Source: Marivita sp. (GTDB taxonomy: Bacteria > Pseudomonadota > Alphaproteobacteria > Rhodobacterales > Rhodobacteraceae). Taken from it: a stretch of 64,000 bases of DNA. The stretch's first letter is position 1; every line of letters begins with the position of its first letter. Of the stretch, positions 31,201-64,000 are shown one piece after another. Below the pieces are notes generated by a model. It saw nothing but the letters and a program-made list of their open reading frames with translations. It searched no databases and had not been told where the DNA came from. The DNA is taken from assembly GCF_020055675.1 (NCBI RefSeq), contig NZ_JAIPUS010000003.1, forward strand, positions 1 to 64,000. The letters run 5' to 3'. The position numbers and the translations under genes were made by a program.

Positions 31201-31334
31201 GATCGGGTCCTGAGATTTGTGGTCCATGTCGGAAAGATAACGCGCCAGGGGGTGGGACAGGTTCCCTCGCTGTGCCGTAAGGCCGCGTTTTGTGTATATC
31301 CAAGGTATTTCACGATGCAGAGGCGGGATTGCGC

Positions 31335-31742
31335 ATGAAACATGCAACCTTTGAAATCCAGACAACAGGCCCGGGCCTTTACGAGTTCACGCGCGATGTC
31401 GCGGCATGGGTGCAGGGCGATGGCCTGTTGACGCTGTTCATCCAGCACACCTTCGCCAGCCTGCTGGTCCAGGAGAACGCCGATCCCGAGGTGAAGACCG
31501 ATCTGAGCGCTTATTTTCATCGCCTCGTGCCGCCGACCACCGATCCGGGGATGTCCTACCTGACGCACACCCATGAAGGCCTGGACGATATGCCGGCCCA
31601 TATCAAGGCGGCGATGCTGCCGGTGAGCCTGTCGATCCCGGTGGTGCACGGGGAGATCGGATTGGGCACATGGCAGGGCATTTATGTCTTTGAACATCGC
31701 AACGCGCCTCACAGGCGGCGCGTTTTGGCGCATCTGGGGTGA
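31335..31742 (+). CDS. YjbQ family protein (UPF0047)
   Basis: A 135-residue protein of the YjbQ family, homotrimeric in known structures. Signature segments are FIQHTFASLLVQENADPEV, THTHEGLDDMPAHIKAAML and IGLGTWQGIYVFEHR; the conserved histidines sit in the first two. E. coli YjbQ has a weak thiamine-phosphate synthase activity, but the physiological role is uncertain. The start at 31335 fits the family N-terminus (ATFEIQTTGPGLYEFT). Confidence 0.85.
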   Translation: MKHATFEIQTTGPGLYEFTRDVAAWVQGDGLLTLFIQHTFASLLVQENADPEVKTDLSAYFHRLVPPTTDPGMSYLTHTHEGLDDMPAHIKAAMLPVSLSIPVVHGEIGLGTWQGIYVFEHRNAPHRRRVLAHLG

Positions 31743-56674: not shown

Positions 56675-57829
56675 TCAGCCCTTGATGGCCCACCCCGCGC
56701 GACGCACCGCGTCTGTGTGCGCGCCAAGCGAGGGGGCGGTTTTGTCCAGCGCGAGGCTGGAGGCGCTGAAGGCGATCGGCGTGCGGACCCCGGGTACGCC
56801 TTCCGGGAGGATCTTCATGTCGCGATGATCGATTTGCGGATCGGCGAACACCTCGGCCACGCTATTGATGGGGGACGCGGGGACCTGCACCGCTTTCAGG
56901 GCCGCCAGCAGATCGGCTTTTGACCATGTCGCGGTTTCCGACTTGAGTTCGGGTACCAGCCTGTCGCGATTTTGCACGCGGTCGGCGTTGCTCTGGTAAT
57001 CCGGCTGCGCCGCCAGATCGGCGCGGCGCAAGGTATCGCACAGGCGTTGATACTGGCCGTCATTTCCTACCGCGATGATGATGTTGCCGTCGGAGACCGG
57101 AAACACCTCGTAGGGCACGATATTGGGGTGCTGATTGCCCATGCGGTCGGGGGACTGGCCGGTGGCCAGGAAATTCATCGCCTGATTGGCAAGGCTGCCG
57201 GCCCCGGCGTCCAGGAGGCTCATGTCGATATGCTGGCCCTGTCCTGTCCTGTCGCGTGCGGCAAGCGCCGCCTGAATGGCGATCACCGAATACAGCCCCG
57301 TGTAGATATCGGTCACGGCCACGCCCACCTTCTGCGGCGCGCCCTGCGGGTCTCCGGTGATCGACATGAGACCGGACATGCCCTGGATGAGGTAATCATA
57401 CCCGGCGCGGTCGGCGTAGGGCCCGGTCTGGCCGAAGCCGGTGATCGAACAATAGACAAGACCGGGATTCGAGGTGGAGAGGCTGGCATAATCCAGACCG
57501 TATTTCGCCAGGCCGCCGACCTTGAAATTCTCGATCAGGACATCGGCCTCTGCGGCCAGGCTTTGCACAAAGGCGCGGCCCTCGTCGGTTGTCAGATCCG
57601 CCGTGACGGAATACTTGCCCCGGTTGCAGCTGTAGAAATAGGCGGCTGACGGCCGGTCTTCACCTGCACGGTCGATGAACGGCGGCCCCCATGTGCGGGT
57701 ATCGTCGCCCTTGGGGCTTTCCACCTTGATCACGGTCGCGCCAAGATCGGCCAATGTCTGGCCAACGATCGGCCCGGCAAGGATGCGGGCCAATTCGAGA
57801 ACTTTCAAACCTTCCAGCGGGGCCGTCAT
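56675..57829 (-). CDS. CaiB/BaiF family CoA-transferase
   Basis: A 384-residue class III CoA-transferase. Key segments are LEGLKVLELARILAGPIVGQ, GATVIKVESPKGDDTRTWGPPF, YFYSCNRGKYSV, and GYDYLIQGMSGLMSITGDP, which carries the catalytic aspartate just after FGQTGPYADRAG. These enzymes move CoA between carboxylic acids. The start overlaps the glutaryl-CoA dehydrogenase stop by one base (TGATG). Paired with that gene, it is most likely a succinyl-CoA:glutarate CoA-transferase, as in glutarate and lysine catabolism. Confidence 0.88.
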   Translation of the reverse strand: MTAPLEGLKVLELARILAGPIVGQTLADLGATVIKVESPKGDDTRTWGPPFIDRAGEDRPSAAYFYSCNRGKYSVTADLTTDEGRAFVQSLAAEADVLIENFKVGGLAKYGLDYASLSTSNPGLVYCSITGFGQTGPYADRAGYDYLIQGMSGLMSITGDPQGAPQKVGVAVTDIYTGLYSVIAIQAALAARDRTGQGQHIDMSLLDAGAGSLANQAMNFLATGQSPDRMGNQHPNIVPYEVFPVSDGNIIIAVGNDGQYQRLCDTLRRADLAAQPDYQSNADRVQNRDRLVPELKSETATWSKADLLAALKAVQVPASPINSVAEVFADPQIDHRDMKILPEGVPGVRTPIAFSASSLALDKTAPSLGAHTDAVRRAGWAIKG

Positions 57830-59043
57830 CAGAAAAAGGCCTGCAACCCTGTCTGTGCGCGGCCAAGGATGAGGGCGTGCACGTCATGCGTGCCTTCGTA
57901 GGTGTTGACCGTTTCGAGGTTCTGCGCGTGCCGCATGACGTGGTATTCCGCCATGATCCCGTTGCCGCCATGCATGTCGCGGGCGTGGCGCGCGATGTCG
58001 AGCGCCTTGCCGCAATTGTTGCGTTTGATCAGGCTGATCGCTTCGGGGGCGGCGGTGCCGGCATCCAGCATGCGTCCCACCTGAAGGGCGGCGTGCAGGC
58101 CAAGCGCGATTTCGGTCTGCATGTCGGCCAGTTTTTTCTGGAACAACTGCGTCTGGGCCAGAGGACGCCCGAACTGCACCCGGTCCAACCCGTATTGACG
58201 CGCCCGGTGCCAGCTGTCCTCGGCGGCGCCCATGACGCCCCAGGCGATGCCATAGCGCGCGCGATTCAGACAGCCGAACGGACCCTTGAGGCCCTCGACG
58301 CCGGGCAGCAGCGCGTCTTCGCCAACCTCGACATCCTTCATCACGATCTCGCCGGTGACCGACGCGCGCAGCGACAGCTTGCCGTTGATCTTGGGCGCCG
58401 ACAGGCCGGTCATGCCTTTTTCGAGCACGAAACCCCGGATCTTGCCGCCATGCGCTTCGGACTTGGCCCAGATGACGAAGACATCGGCAATCGGGCTGTT
58501 GGAGATCCACATCTTGGCCCCGTTGATGACATAGCCACCCTCGGTTTTCTTGGCGACGGTCTTCATGCCCGCCGGGTCCGATCCGGCATCGGGTTCTGTC
58601 AGGCCGAAACAGCCGATCAGAGTGCCGGCTGCCAGGCCGGGCAGGTATTTCTTGCGCTGTTCGTCTGAGCCGTAGGCATGGATCGGGTACATCACCAGGG
58701 AGCTTTGAACGCTCATCATCGACCGGTAGCCGCTATCCACGCGCTCGACCTCGCGGGCGACAAGGCCGTAGCTGACATAATTCGCACCCAAGCCGCCGAA
58801 TTCCTCGGGAATGGTCACACCAAGCAAGCCCATCGCGCCCATCTCGGCAAATATCTCGGGGGCGACGCCTTCGTTCAGATACATGTCCGACACGCGCGGA
58901 GCGAGTTTGTCTGCCGCATAGGCCGCAGCGCTGTCGGCGATCATGCGCTCGTCCTCTTCCAGCGCCGCGCGCAAGCCCAAGGGGTCTTCCCAGTCGAAGT
59001 CTGCCAGTGACGGCCCGTGGCCTGCGTTCGATGCGTCAAGCAT
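57829..59043 (-). CDS. gcdH: Glutaryl-CoA dehydrogenase
   Basis: A 404-residue FAD enzyme that oxidatively decarboxylates glutaryl-CoA to crotonyl-CoA. ATG 59043 is preferred because AAAGGGAG then lies at proper spacing. The acyl-CoA dehydrogenase fold is clear: [53 protein letters not shown]. The C-terminal [20 protein letters not shown] has the catalytic Glu. The ARYGIAWG segment is typical of GcdH. It forms a two-gene operon with the CoA-transferase. Confidence 0.88.
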
Positions 59044-59459
59044 GTCCATGCTCCCTTTATTGGTCATCTGCGGCGGTCGATCCGGGGCGTCCGTACCGGG
59101 TGCCGAAAGCGGGTCTTTCGATCCATCTCCCTGATCGTCCGAACCTGGAATTCCTGTTGCGGTCCCGAATGTATCTGTGCGGCAGGGGTCTTTTGCCGGG
59201 CGCGAAACACCACCGCGTTTCGGCGCATGATACGGTGCGGTGCATCGCGCGCCAAGGGTTGTGTGGCCAAATGCGGCAGGTAAATTGAGCCGAGCCGGAG
59301 AGCGTCTGCGCGCGCCATGTGCGGCACAGGCAGGGCGTGCCCGTGCGGGGCCTCGAAGATCCGCCCATTAATTGGGCAAATAGCCCATAATTTTTGCATC
59401 TGACCATGTGGCATGCCGCATCAGCTTGCGTGTCTTGCGGGCCTGCGCAACGGTCAAGC
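59044..59459. other. Divergent region between gcdH and the Anbu operon
   Basis: About 416 bases without a gene I can support. The half nearer the Anbu operon holds an A+T-rich patch with a dyad described separately. It presumably contains the promoters of both units. Confidence 0.5.
59363..59391. promoter_or_regulatory. Operator-like dyad upstream of the Anbu operon
   Basis: GCCCATTAATTGGGC (59363-59377) has five-base arms around TTAAT. It is followed after six bases by a half site GCCCATAATTT (59383 onward). A -10-like CATAAT lies within it. The position about 70-95 bases before the first start codon suits a promoter with an overlapping regulator site. Confidence 0.45.
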
Positions 59460-60884
59460 ATGTCTGATCACTCTGTTTTTGATGAAATGTGGGGCCGGGA
59501 CGCGGGGCTGCGTGAGCCTTACCGGAATTTCCACGCTTGGTTCGACCAGGAAGACCCAAAGCGCCTGCGGGCGAAGAATCGCGAGGCCGAGGATCTTTTT
59601 CGCCTGACCGGGATCACTTTCAACGTTTACGGCCGGTCCGAGGCTGAAGAGCGTCTGATCCCCTTCGATATCATTCCGAGGATCATTTCAGGGTCTGAAT
59701 GGGCCAAGCTGTCGCGCGGTATCGATCAGCGGGTGCGCGCGATCAACGCGTTCCTGCATGACATTTACCATACGCAAGAGATCGTGAAGGCCGGACGCAT
59801 CCCGAAAGAGATGATCGCCCAGAACGAGGCGTTCCTGCCGCACATGATCGGGGTCGATGTGCCGGGCGGGGTGTATACGCATATCGTCGGGATCGACCTT
59901 GTGCGCACCGGGCCGGGTGAGTTTTTCGTGTTGGAGGACAACGCGCGGACGCCCTCCGGGGTGAGCTACATGCTCGAAAATCGCGAAACCATGCTTCAGA
60001 TGTTTCCCGAGCTGTTTTCCAAGAACCGCGTCCAGCCCGTGCAGCATTACCCGATCGACCTGCGCCGGTCGTTGGCCGCCTGCGCGCCCAAGGCGGCAGG
60101 CGCCAACCCCACGGTCGCGGTGCTGACGCCTGGTATCTACAATTCGGCCTATTTCGAACATGCGTTCCTAGCCGACCAGATGGGTGTCGAACTGGTCGAA
60201 GGGCATGACCTGCGGGTTGTGGATGGTCGCGTGGCGATGCGCACGACCCATGGCTACAAGGCGATTGACGTGCTGTACCGCCGGGTCGACGATGATTTCC
60301 TGGACCCGCTGAATTTCAATCCCGAAAGCCAGCTTGGCGTGCCGGGCATCATGGATGTCTACCGCGCGGGCGGGATCACCATCGCCAACGCGCCCGGAAC
60401 CGGGATATCCGACGACAAGGCGATTTATTCCTACATGCCGGAAATCGTCGAGTTTTATACCGGTGAGCGCCCCTTGTTGCAAAACGTGCCCACCCATCGC
60501 TGTTCCGAACCCGATGCGCTGGCCTATGTTCTGGACAACCTAGAGGACCTGGTGGTCAAGGAGGTTCACGGGTCGGGGGGGTATGGCATGCTGATCGGCC
60601 CTACCGCGACGAGGAAAGATCTTGCCGCGTTCCGCCGCAAGCTCAAGGCCCGCCCCAAGAACTACATTGCCCAGCCGACGCTGAGCCTGTCGACGGTGCC
60701 GATCTTTGCGCAGAAAGGGCTGGCTCCACGGCATGTCGATTTGCGCCCCTTCGTGCTCGTGAGTCCCGATGGCATCAAGATCACGCCTGGCGGCCTGACC
60801 CGTGTGGCGCTGAAGAAAGGATCCCTGGTGGTGAATTCGTCGCAAGGCGGCGGCACCAAGGACACATGGGTGCTGGAGGAGTAA
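59460..60884 (+). CDS. Circularly permuted ATP-grasp protein of the Anbu operon
   Basis: A 474-residue protein of the circularly permuted type 2 ATP-grasp family (formerly DUF404/DUF407). Segments near the N-terminus read GITFNVYGRSEAEERLIPFD and NAFLHDIYHTQEIVKAGRIP. The ATP-binding core shows LVRTGPGEFFVLEDNARTPSG and NLEDLVVKEVHGSGGYGMLIGP, with SSQGGGTKDTWVL at the end. Such enzymes are predicted to ligate amino acids or peptides using ATP. The start at 59460 opens the operon; the alpha-E gene follows after four bases. Confidence 0.9.
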   Translation: MSDHSVFDEMWGRDAGLREPYRNFHAWFDQEDPKRLRAKNREAEDLFRLTGITFNVYGRSEAEERLIPFDIIPRIISGSEWAKLSRGIDQRVRAINAFLHDIYHTQEIVKAGRIPKEMIAQNEAFLPHMIGVDVPGGVYTHIVGIDLVRTGPGEFFVLEDNARTPSGVSYMLENRETMLQMFPELFSKNRVQPVQHYPIDLRRSLAACAPKAAGANPTVAVLTPGIYNSAYFEHAFLADQMGVELVEGHDLRVVDGRVAMRTTHGYKAIDVLYRRVDDDFLDPLNFNPESQLGVPGIMDVYRAGGITIANAPGTGISDDKAIYSYMPEIVEFYTGERPLLQNVPTHRCSEPDALAYVLDNLEDLVVKEVHGSGGYGMLIGPTATRKDLAAFRRKLKARPKNYIAQPTLSLSTVPIFAQKGLAPRHVDLRPFVLVSPDGIKITPGGLTRVALKKGSLVVNSSQGGGTKDTWVLEE

Positions 60885-60888
60885 GGCC

Positions 60889-61830
60889 ATGCTGGGAAAA
60901 ACCGCGAACGGTCTTTACTGGATGTACCGCTACATGGAGCGCGCCGAGAACGCTGCGCGGCTCATCGAGACCGGGCAGCGGATCGCCCTGACCCGGTTGA
61001 ACCAGACGGACAAGGAATGGGCGTCGGTCTTGCGGTCGGGTGATTGCCTGCAAGGCTATACGGCCACGCATGACGAGATGTCCCGCGATCTTGCCGTCGA
61101 CTGGATGCTGCGGAGCAAGGACAACCCATCTTCGGTTGTCTCCAGCATAAACGCGGCGCGGTTGAACGCGCGGCTGGTGCGGACCGCGATCACGGGTGAG
61201 GTCTGGGAGGCCGTCAATTCCGCCTACATGACGCTGAAAAAGGCGCTGGGGCGCAAGGTGTCCGAGCGGGAACTGCCCAGTGTGCTGCGCCTGATCCGGC
61301 ACCATGCGGCACTGGTGCGTGGGGTCACGCATGGAACCATGCTGCGCAACGAGATTTACGATTTCGCCCGACTGGGCACATTCCTGGAACGGGCGGACAA
61401 CACGGCGCGCATTCTGGACGTGAAATATTACGTCCTGCTGCCATCCGCCCGGTCGGTCGGCTCGTCGATCGACAACGTGCAATGGGAGTCGATTCTCAGG
61501 TCCGTGTCTGCTCGGGGCGGCTTTCGCATGGAATACGGGGCCGGCGGCGGCCCGCGCGAGATCGCGGATTTCCTGATCCTGGACAAGCGCATGCCACGGT
61601 CACTGGCCTTTTGCGCCGGTGAGCTGAGCACCAACCTGGGCTTTCTCGCGAAGGGTGGGGATGTCGGCCAGGCGTCGCGCAACAAGGTGCGTGCCCTGGA
61701 AAACGGCCTGCTGTCAAAATCGATCGATGATATTTTTCGCCACGGTCTGCATGAATTCCTGCAAACGACGCTCAAGGACCTGACCGCCATTTCGCGCCAG
61801 ATCGAAGAGGAGTTCCGGTTCTATGCCTGA
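60889..61830 (+). CDS. Alpha-E domain protein (DUF403)
   Basis: A 313-residue all-helical protein. The family start is LGKTANGLYWMYRYMERAENAARLIET, which is split here as the motif W-M-Y-R-Y-x-E-R-A-E-N-A-A-R. The same E-R-A-x-N motif reappears in LGTFLERADNTARILDVKYY, reflecting internal helical repeats. Alpha-E proteins always travel with the circularly permuted ATP-grasp enzyme and are thought to assist it; the activity is unknown. It is tightly linked in the operon. Confidence 0.9.
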   Translation: MLGKTANGLYWMYRYMERAENAARLIETGQRIALTRLNQTDKEWASVLRSGDCLQGYTATHDEMSRDLAVDWMLRSKDNPSSVVSSINAARLNARLVRTAITGEVWEAVNSAYMTLKKALGRKVSERELPSVLRLIRHHAALVRGVTHGTMLRNEIYDFARLGTFLERADNTARILDVKYYVLLPSARSVGSSIDNVQWESILRSVSARGGFRMEYGAGGGPREIADFLILDKRMPRSLAFCAGELSTNLGFLAKGGDVGQASRNKVRALENGLLSKSIDDIFRHGLHEFLQTTLKDLTAISRQIEEEFRFYA

Positions 61831-61851
61831 TTTTGCCGGCACGAGCGCGTC

Positions 61852-62649
61852 ATGCGTCTGAAGATCGATCATACCACGCAGTACCGGTTCACCACGCCCG
61901 TGATCTACGGCTTGCAGCAGCTGCGCAAGACGCCAAAATCCTCTTGTAATCAATCTGTTGTGCAGTGGGAAACCCGGATTGACGGCGGCCGCAAGGAAGT
62001 GGTTTTCGAGGATCACCACCACAACACGACCGAGCTGATCAGCTTTGATCCCGATACCATCGAACTCTCGGTGACCAGCGAAGGCGATGTCGAGATCGAG
62101 GAGAATGTCGGCATCCTCGGCGCGCATCATGGCCCTGCGCCACTGTGGCTCTACCAGATGCCCACCGCGCGCACGCAGGTTGGAGCGGGCACACGCGTGC
62201 TGGTGCGTGACATCGTCTCCGCGCCCGGTATCCCCGATTTGCACGCGCTGTCGGCACGGATTTGCGAAACTGTGACCTTTACCCTGGGCGCGTCCGAGCC
62301 GAGCTGGTCCGCCGAAGACGCGATTTCGGCTGGAAAGGGGGTGTGTCAGGACCACACGCATATCTTCATTGCTTGCGCACGGGCCATGGGGCTTCCGGCC
62401 CGGTATGTCTCGGGGTACCTGATGCTGAACGAGTCCACGGTTCAGGAGGCGATGCACGCTTGGGCCGAGGCCTATGTCGACGGGCTTGGTTGGGTCGGTT
62501 TCGACGTATCGAACGGGATCTCCCCGGACACACGTTACGTTCGCGTCGCGACAGGGCTGGACTATTCCGATGCGGCACCGATATCTGGGACCCGAATTGG
62601 CGGGTCCGGCGAGGTGCTGGACGTCCGCATCAATGTGGTTCAGCAATAG
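61852..62649 (+). CDS. Transglutaminase-like protease of the Anbu operon
   Basis: A 265-residue protein with a C-terminal transglutaminase-like domain. The catalytic triad is C165 (GKGVCQDHTHIF), H202 (EAMHAWAEAYVDGLGW) and D218 (GFDVSNG). The N-terminal half is the usual beta-rich extension (LKIDHTTQYRFTTPVIYGLQ). Members are predicted to act as peptidases or to form isopeptide links. It starts 21 bases after the alpha-E gene and is likely to work on the product of the ATP-grasp enzyme. Confidence 0.92.
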   Translation: MRLKIDHTTQYRFTTPVIYGLQQLRKTPKSSCNQSVVQWETRIDGGRKEVVFEDHHHNTTELISFDPDTIELSVTSEGDVEIEENVGILGAHHGPAPLWLYQMPTARTQVGAGTRVLVRDIVSAPGIPDLHALSARICETVTFTLGASEPSWSAEDAISAGKGVCQDHTHIFIACARAMGLPARYVSGYLMLNESTVQEAMHAWAEAYVDGLGWVGFDVSNGISPDTRYVRVATGLDYSDAAPISGTRIGGSGEVLDVRINVVQQ

Positions 62650-62658
62650 GAATACCGC

Positions 62659-63399
62659 GTGACATATTGCGTTGGAATGATGCTGCGCAGCGGCCTGGTC
62701 TTCATGTCCGACACACGGACCAACGCCGGTCTGGACAATATCTCGACCTTCAAGAAGATGACGATCTGGGAGGACCCCGGTGAGCGCGTCCTGACGCTGA
62801 TGTCGGCGGGCAATCTGGCCACCACCCAAGCGGTTGTCAGCCTGCTGGAAGAGCGCAGCAAACAGCCCGAGGACCGCGAGCCGTCACTGATGAAGGCACC
62901 GTCGATGTTCCAGGCGGCCTGCATGGTGGGAGACACGCTGCGCGAGGTGATCCAGGATCTTGCCAAGGGCGGCCAGCGCGCTGACAGCAACTTTGACGCG
63001 ACCCTGATCCTGGGTGGTCAGATCGGGGACAGCCCGCCGCGTCTCTTTCTGATCTACCCGGCCGGCAATTTCATCGAGGCCGGCACGGATACGCCTTTCT
63101 TCCAGATCGGGGAGATCAAATATGGCCGCCCGATCCTGGTGCGGGCCTATGATCCGGATCTGACATTCGCCAATGCGCTCAAGCTCTTGCTGGTCAGTTT
63201 TGATTCGACCCTCAAGGCCAATCTTTCGGTCGGCGCGCCTTTGGATTATTTCTGCTACCGGACGGACAGTTTGAAGGTCGACACAGTCGGCCGTGTCGAA
63301 CCGGACAACCCGGAATTCCAGGCAATCTCGACCCAATGGGGCAACGCGCTCAAGCAAGCCCTCGACACGTTGCCGGACGTGACCCTTACCAGTAACTAA
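62659..63399 (+). CDS. anbu: Anbu proteasome-like protein
   Basis: A 246-residue member of the N-terminal nucleophile hydrolase superfamily, the bacterial proteasome homologue Anbu. After removal of Met, Thr becomes residue 1 (M-T-Y-C-V-G-M). Asp in VFMSDTRTNAGLD and Lys in FKKMTIW match the catalytic Asp17 and Lys33 of proteasome beta subunits. Known Anbu structures form open helical or ring-like assemblies. It follows the transglutaminase gene by nine bases and closes the four-gene module. Confidence 0.93.
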   Translation: MTYCVGMMLRSGLVFMSDTRTNAGLDNISTFKKMTIWEDPGERVLTLMSAGNLATTQAVVSLLEERSKQPEDREPSLMKAPSMFQAACMVGDTLREVIQDLAKGGQRADSNFDATLILGGQIGDSPPRLFLIYPAGNFIEAGTDTPFFQIGEIKYGRPILVRAYDPDLTFANALKLLLVSFDSTLKANLSVGAPLDYFCYRTDSLKVDTVGRVEPDNPEFQAISTQWGNALKQALDTLPDVTLTSN

Positions 63400-63423
63400 T
63401 CCCTTGCGTCGGAAGGAACCATC

Positions 63424-64000
63424 ATGACGACACATCCTGTAATCTGCGTTGGCGGCGAAAACCTTATCGACCATGTGACCCGCGATGGCGCGCAATCGGC
63501 TTTGGCCGGCGGGTCCCCGTTCAACGTGGCGATGGCGCTGGGCCGGCAGCAGGCGGATGTGCGCTATGTCACCCCGATTTCGACCGATTCCTGGGGCGAT
63601 CATTTGGCAGACACGCTGAAGTCTTCGAATGTCACGCTCAGCGGCGGGCGCAGCGATGCCCCGACAACCATCGCACGGGTGACGGTGCGCGATGGCATCC
63701 CGGACTATCGGTTCGAACGCGATGGAACCGCCGAACGCACTGTCACGCCGGCATTCTTGCAAGAGGTGATCCCGGCGGACACGGCGGCGCTGCACACGGG
63801 GTCGCTTGCCCTGACGATGGGGGCGGATGCCGAGGCGTGGGAGACAACCTGCGCAGCAGCGTTCGATAGCGGAACGCTCGTGTCATTGGACCCGAATGTG
63901 CGGATATCCGTGGTCGCCGATGTCGAAAGCTACCGCGCCCGGATCGGTCGGATGTTGGAAAAGACCAATCTTCTCAAACTGAGCGATGAAGATCTCGGTG
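63424..64000 (+). CDS. PfkB family carbohydrate kinase, partial at right edge
   Basis: The first 192 codons are visible, with GGAAGGA before the ATG. The ribokinase-fold N-terminus is clear: VICVGGENLIDHVT, GGSPFNVAMALGRQQADV with the sugar-binding Gly-Gly-x-x-x-N, and ISTDSWGDHLADTLKSSNV. Later LHTGSLALT and VSLDPNVRISVV also fit fructokinase-like members. It phosphorylates a sugar such as fructose using ATP. The gene starts 24 bases after Anbu but is probably an independent function. The catalytic GAGD motif lies beyond the window. Confidence 0.88.
   Translation, partial: MTTHPVICVGGENLIDHVTRDGAQSALAGGSPFNVAMALGRQQADVRYVTPISTDSWGDHLADTLKSSNVTLSGGRSDAPTTIARVTVRDGIPDYRFERDGTAERTVTPAFLQEVIPADTAALHTGSLALTMGADAEAWETTCAAAFDSGTLVSLDPNVRISVVADVESYRARIGRMLEKTNLLKLSDEDLG

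Follow-up and report, generated by a model that had tools for sequence, protein, structure and literature searches.

The Anbu operon and its proteins

The first 64,000 nucleotides of contig NZ_JAIPUS010000003.1 of Marivita sp., referred to here as the window, contain an operon of four genes that ends with the gene for Anbu, a proteasome-like protein, and that is preceded by two predicted boxes of the type bound by the nitrogen regulator NtrC. All four genes are on the + strand and encode, in order, a circularly permuted ATP-grasp protein (474 residues, 59460..60884), an alpha-E protein (313 residues, 60889..61830), a transglutaminase-like protein (265 residues, 61852..62649) and Anbu itself (246 residues, GTG start, 62659..63399). 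This is the order of the published operon (PMC6376114). The intergenic gaps of 4, 21 and 9 bases, given with the gene direction in an earlier note made from the sequence alone, are right to the base; the medians in 143 Anbu operons are 4, 4 and 31 bp. Co-transcription of the four genes is plausible: the gaps are short, and the one terminator-like site detected in 59050-63999 is ahead of the genes, at 59373-59387. What that note overlooked is the promoter, where the tandem NtrC-type boxes lie at 59361-59399.

The family assignments that the note made for the first two proteins were borne out by Pfam. The ATP-grasp matches CP_ATPgrasp_2 (PF14403, 552 bits, 6.3e-166) over positions 1-374 of the 374-position profile, a full-length type 2 domain, and has a solved relative by sequence, 3n6x (1.4e-195, over residues 6-473). 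The second protein matches Alpha-E (PF04168, 282 bits, 9.2e-84) and its structure model is all-helical, with a predicted local distance difference test score (pLDDT) of 89.2. A sequence search revealed no solved relative of alpha-E, its best matches being four kinase chains at E 0.18-0.2, and Foldseek found no match of the model in the PDB at E<=0.001. Given an all-helical prediction with no PDB relative detected, we regard alpha-E as the least understood part of the operon.

The third protein carries Transglut_core (PF01841, 3.4e-22) together with Bact_transglu_N (PF08379), and its core has a solved sequence relative in 3isr. Its catalytic triad, Cys165 (codon 62344-62346), His202 (62455-62457) and Asp218 (62503-62505), is kept in all 160 aligned transglutaminase-like sequences. 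Anbu matches the Pfam Proteasome family (8.7e-5) and, at E<=0.001, five distinct solved sequences labelled Anbu, designed Anbu or peptidase: the designed 5loy (7e-88), 5nyj, 5nyf, 5nyw and 5lox, of which 5nyw and 5lox are Anbu (PMC6376114). It starts Met-Thr-Tyr, so that the threonine directly follows the initiator with no propeptide; numbered without the Met, Thr1 is at 62662-62664, Asp17 at 62710-62712 and Lys32 at 62755-62757. Thr1 is present in 180 of 181 aligned homologues, and Asp17 and Lys32 are kept in every one of the 181 (proteins longer than 400 and 330 residues were left out of the counts for Anbu and the transglutaminase). The lone homologue with a different first residue, at locus L229, has Ser there. 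The triad and the Thr, Asp and Lys that the earlier note had read are thus real, and the loss of catalytic residues that it had named beforehand as speaking against its interpretation was not seen in the alignments. The Anbu proteins of Pseudomonas aeruginosa (5lox), Yersinia bercovieri (5nyw) and Hyphomicrobium (5nyj) resemble the protein of the window in Thr1, Asp17, Lys32, the operon and the full-length match, and are not known to differ from it biochemically. The S1 pocket of Anbu-1 is T20-F30-T48-L52-S55 (PMC5666114), and the corresponding positions here are T20, F30, S48, L52 and T55, three identical and two conservative; by these features the window holds a complete operon of Anbu-1 type. 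Proteins of that type are further marked by an open-ring oligomer of 12-14 subunits. Anbu and alpha-E each occur in one copy in the 3.6-Mb genome, and NCBIfam has no name for any of the four proteins.

Tandem NtrC-type boxes ahead of the operon

A palindrome is common to the regions that precede the Anbu operons of relatives. Because a matrix trained on Anbu upstream regions would be circular when applied to them, we learned one de novo from the 300-bp upstream regions of the P-II genes of 30 relatives, with no Anbu sequence, and used it for all box counts, to which a separate Anbu-upstream matrix made no contribution. The P-II-derived matrix reads TGC(C/A)(C/T)AAANTTT(G/A)(G/T)GCA. Its top two matches in the window are the tandem pair ahead of the ATP-grasp gene, both on the + strand and 20 bp apart: box 1 at 59361..59379 (19.2 bits), a palindrome with a GCC-N9-GGC core whose first base is 99 bp ahead of the start codon, and box 2 at 59381..59399 (15.1 bits), which begins 79 bp ahead of it. 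The third-best match is a single one at 31329-31347 (12.6 bits).

At a threshold of 12 bits, boxes are found in 32 of the 58 Anbu upstream regions from the same family, against 12 of 2883 other segments. When named loci are added and three identical upstream regions dropped, 74 of 128 Anbu operons are boxed, compared with 4 of 741 regions upstream of the other genes of these loci; 14 of 23 loci titled Hyphomicrobiales have boxes. Alignment of 73 sites of at least 12 bits gives 0.95 bits per column within the box and 0.03-0.07 in its flanks; the sites had been chosen by the score of the box, whereas the flanks played no part in the choice. Tandem pairs, defined as sites of 12 and 10 bits spaced by 19-21 or 29-31 bp, number 3 in the 39,000 bp of operon upstream regions and 1 in the remaining 1.64 Mb of the loci. 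We also looked below the box for a fixed sigma-70 promoter and found none.

The same matrix has matches ahead of nitrogen genes elsewhere in this genome. A box of 24.9 bits precedes dusB-ntrB-ntrC (followed by genes that by eye are ntrY- and ntrX-like), and tandem pairs precede ureD of the urease operon (19.7/15.2 bits, 30 bp), glnB-glnA (17.2/16.1 bits, 20 bp) and two glnK-amtB operons (18.5/17.4 and 16.0/17.4 bits, both 29 bp); a weak box of 12.0 bits lies before an amino-acid transporter gene. Pfam confirmed the dus, histidine kinase, NtrC-type regulator, UreD, UreC, P-II, GlnA, AmtB and binding-protein assignments. The published core of the NtrC regulon consists of glnA, amtB, glnBK and ntrBC, and in Rhodobacterales urease is also among the targets (PMC5343134). 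The Anbu operon shares its boxes with glnBA, amtB, ntrBC and ureD and is therefore grouped with the genes of nitrogen limitation.

The two glnK-amtB operons (L108 and L109) each stand beside a similar divergent gene that by eye is penicillin-binding-protein-like, an apparent duplication. A whole-genome search for the palindrome told us little once two mismatches were allowed, since it gave 152 matches and the reversed control 296; only the two exact matches were used. One of these, at L142:2959-2977 (G000 contig C33; 25.4 bits), lies between a short-chain dehydrogenase gene and uvrC, where no nitrogen gene is evident. A further NtrC-type box of 18.6 bits, at L143:1237-1255 (G000 contig C34), is situated where a transporter-like gene ends. 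About 370 bp farther on is the end of a convergent membrane-protein gene, exosortase-like by eye.

The NtrC of this genome is without the GAFTGA loop, which contacts sigma-54, and no sigma-54 promoter is therefore expected at the Anbu operon; rpoN is found once in the genome. Scored with a matrix built from a consensus, sigma-54-like sites reach 12 bits before only 2 of 58 and 3 of 73 alphaproteobacterial operons, a rarity that fits an NtrC of this kind. The NtrC of Rhodobacter capsulatus, to which it is similar, works without sigma-54, together with RpoD, although the Anbu operon is not among the named targets of its regulon in the part of that paper available (PMC6925177). In the literature searched, which was available in part and had the RegPrecise tables outside it, we found no description of NtrC boxes ahead of an alphaproteobacterial Anbu operon. 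The operon itself was already known; what appears to be new is the mapping of its predicted NtrC-type control, which from these comparisons we consider very probable.

Nitrogen control outside the alphaproteobacteria

Earlier papers already connect genes of this set with nitrogen, in Pseudomonas putida and, for a cluster without a listed Anbu, in Burkholderia. The same four genes in P. putida KT2440 (PP_2685-PP_2688) rise in nitrogen limitation, a response attributed to NtrB/NtrC (PMC7801951, PMC3325844), and are more highly expressed on nitrate than on ammonium (PMC8050072). This organism differs from Marivita in being a gammaproteobacterium, whereas for the window we predict control through tandem NtrC-type boxes and no sigma-54 promoter. 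The Burkholderia cenocepacia H111 cluster I35_5080-5083 has the DUF404/407, DUF403 and transglutaminase genes in common with the window, depends on sigma-54 and is expressed 6- to 9-fold less when ntrC is mutated; unlike the operon of the window it includes a second, large transglutaminase and, in the part of the paper available, lists no Anbu (PMC5491218). In a marine metagenome study DUF403/404/407 were tied to urea-metabolism domains (PMC3597751), and a 2025 paper on the sigma-54 regulon contains the word COG3484 (PMC12316311).

Sigma-54-like sites scoring at least 12 were found before 9 of 22 non-alphaproteobacterial Anbu operons and in 12 of 497 segments that served as controls from these loci (Fisher 1.6e-8; the controls are mostly coding, which weakens the comparison, and include four alphaproteobacterial loci). 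The Anbu operon of Caballeronia has such a site at 18.2 bits. Six genomes of one family in which Anbu is solitary have none at Anbu (best 8.5), while of their unlinked ATP-grasp/alpha-E operons five score 10.7, 14.4, 12.3, 11.9 and 16.0, at positions from -40 to -51, and the sixth 13.4 at -150. Where the genes are separated, then, the putative sites appear to stay with ATP-grasp/alpha-E rather than with Anbu, in agreement both with the B. cenocepacia cluster under NtrC and sigma-54 and with the induction in P. putida. In four of the six loci (L239, L251, L254 and L255) the solitary Anbu gene is followed by a gene that by eye is alpha/beta hydrolase-like.

Distribution and gene order

Anbu was found in 83 of 120 genomes of the same family, a set drawn across genera, and in 76 of 199 genomes of the phylum. 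The recurrence of the four-gene set that the earlier note had described is confirmed: the order is kept in 55 of the 60 loci fetched from the same family, in 76 of 80 named ones and in 17 of 40 from across the phylum. Two of the same-family loci outside the 55, L034 and L055, are broken by contig ends. Loci L077, L084 and L086 have ATP-grasp, alpha-E and Anbu and lack the small transglutaminase beside Anbu; its substitute is a divergent transglutaminase of 1095-1102 residues fused to a DUF2126 amidoligase domain.

Among loci showing an ATP-grasp, this gene and alpha-E adjoin on one strand, within 400 bp, in 58 of 58 same-family, 72 of 77 named and 28 of 29 phylum-wide cases. In the hybrid operon of L076 a distant ATP-grasp (31%) and alpha-E (24-26%) stand jointly beside an ordinary transglutaminase and Anbu. 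Of 37 same-family genomes without Anbu we examined 20, in which the ATP-grasp is absent from 16 and kept in four. From the near-constant adjacency, the joint replacement in L076 and the retention of ATP-grasp without Anbu, we infer that ATP-grasp and alpha-E move as a unit, with Anbu and the transglutaminase as additions to it. An Anbu gene of 49.8% identity is carried by a Klebsiella plasmid from water (NZ_CP084831.1, 172,669 bp), so Anbu can sit on mobile DNA. None of 27 matches in plasmid records, where we sought a cyanobacterial Anbu with NtcA control in mind, was cyanobacterial.

Discussion

We propose the following for the role of the operon. When nitrogen is short, NtrC would bind the tandem boxes at 59361-59399 and the four genes would be switched on. 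The ATP-grasp and alpha-E, the presumed core, would activate a carboxylate with ATP and make or remodel an amide or isopeptide bond, while the transglutaminase-like Cys enzyme and Anbu, through Thr1, would hydrolyse or transfer such bonds, and nitrogen might in this way be salvaged from proteins, peptides or an amide store during limitation. On balance we lean towards the statement as a whole, that is, an Anbu-1-type operon in the NtrC regulon in which an amide-bond-forming core and two hydrolases salvage nitrogen. Salvage taken by itself, including its direction, is tentative; we favour it because the operon keeps company with urease, ammonium and amino-acid uptake and glutamine synthetase. 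A make-and-break role at peptide or isopeptide bonds was predicted for the gene set by Iyer (2009), as described in PMC6376114, and the ATP-grasp does free phosphate from ATP (PMC6376114).

Several observations weigh against this proposal. Fifty-four of the 128 upstream regions fall below 12 bits, including all four titled Sphingomonadales, with Paracoccus at 9.2 and Limimaricola at 5.9 bits, and of 34 upstream regions with a box of at least 10 bits just 7 have another one exactly 20 bp away. The ATP-grasp genes of the four family genomes that retain it without Anbu have one boxed upstream region (21.8 bits) and three at 6.3-6.9, and the genomes compared are related to one another. Outside the alphaproteobacteria 13 of the 22 operons have no sigma-54-like site at 12, and four of the six genomes in which Anbu is solitary have a further, distant copy of ATP-grasp, which scores 2.7, 12.9, 7.1 and 10.3. 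The P. putida operon genes are still induced in an rpoN mutant, and in one column of that study (the column order being our reading) Anbu changes 1.12-fold and its partners 11- to 15-fold (PMC7801951). Anbu expression is also described as constitutive and the same under various conditions, yet up in nitrogen-limited P. putida (PMC5666114). As to the chemistry, Anbu is inactive as a peptidase on standard substrates (PMC5666114, PMC6376114) and no stable complex of the four proteins was found (PMC6376114).

The palindromes could instead be an RNA hairpin or terminator, or be read by another regulator such as NtrX. The stretch between the boxes, 59373-59387, is able to fold into a terminator-like stem that has a T-rich tail, and the ntrY/ntrX-like genes do come after ntrBC. 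This stem is the single terminator-like site in 59050-63999, where shuffles give a mean of 3.9, and the same box stands before known NtrC targets in this genome; we therefore consider such an origin highly improbable and predicted control by NtrC the better account of the boxes.

What the four enzymes do under that control admits other answers. The earlier note, in line with the published prediction, had suggested that ATP-grasp and alpha-E make a peptide tag or small peptide which the other two enzymes cleave or remove. On this view a short peptide or an amino acid would be joined to a protein or metabolite by the first pair and trimmed or taken off by the transglutaminase-like enzyme and Anbu, and nitrogen control would set only the timing. 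The phosphate release by ATP-grasp, the intact Cys and Thr active sites and the co-occurrence (ATP-grasp absent from 16 of 20 Anbu-less family genomes, present in 58 of 60 Anbu loci) are all compatible with this, although four of the 20 keep ATP-grasp regardless. A tag gene within the operon is itself unlikely because the gaps are mostly too short for its reading frame, reaching 90 bp in only 16, 1 and 14 of the 143 operons, and none was seen. No conjugate is reported in the parts of the papers available, and the authors of one judge peptide synthesis less likely than protein degradation (PMC5666114). Nothing in our comparisons appears to favour a tag, and we think this scheme rather unlikely. 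The degradation preferred by those authors would make Anbu a self-compartmentalised protease for damaged or surplus proteins whose substrates the other three proteins adapt, or which they regulate. It has been proposed for nitrogen limitation, and Thr1 of P. aeruginosa Anbu, in a proteasome-like site, reacts with epoxomicin and MG132; no partner AAA ATPase is known, as far as the available part of the paper goes (PMC5666114). To this are added the inactivity on standard substrates and the tendency of sigma-54-like sites to accompany ATP-grasp/alpha-E, and not Anbu, in genomes that separate them, and we judge degradation as the main role improbable.

The actinobacterial Pup-proteasome offers a comparison with the salvage that we propose, being an amidoligase with a proteasome-type hydrolase linked to nitrogen starvation. 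Its ligase is unrelated to ATP-grasp/alpha-E, and the system depends on an ATPase ring as well as on the tag Pup. No small Pup-like tag gene accompanies the ligase within the operon; a tag encoded elsewhere was not searched for. The operon might be a proteobacterial counterpart of such tagging and salvage in nitrogen starvation, with ATP-grasp/alpha-E as an amidoligase that marks proteins or forms an amide conjugate while lacking a tag gene in the operon, Anbu as an optional clean-up hydrolase, and nitrogen control kept or re-invented as sigma-54 sites outside the alphaproteobacteria and as NtrC boxes without sigma-54 within them, but we regard this as unlikely.

Anbu has been discussed as a relic of the ancestor of the proteasome, and the two structural studies that found it inactive give no physiological substrate. 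A conserved promoter of nitrogen limitation would indicate when to look, namely in nitrogen-starved cells; P. putida, Mesorhizobium and marine rhodobacteral strains are tractable hosts; and the first pair to examine would be ATP-grasp with alpha-E rather than Anbu alone. The job of the operon thus becomes directly testable by expression, deletion and metabolite experiments.

Neighbouring genes

Two neighbours were considered as partners of the operon and rejected. The pfkB gene lies 24 bp downstream of it in the window, and is found downstream in 0 of 60 same-family, 1 of 80 named and 0 of 40 phylum-wide loci. The acyl-CoA dehydrogenase gene is divergent upstream in 0 of 60, 3 of 80 and 0 of 40; it forms a pair with a CoA-transferase gene at 56675-59067, ahead of the operon. 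The nearest NCBIfam model to the CoA-transferase is succinate-glutarate CoA-transferase, below the cut-off of that model. Both pfkB and the divergent acyl-CoA dehydrogenase gene, the latter again paired with the CoA-transferase gene, adjoin the operon in the closest relative found, Marivita sp. L145.

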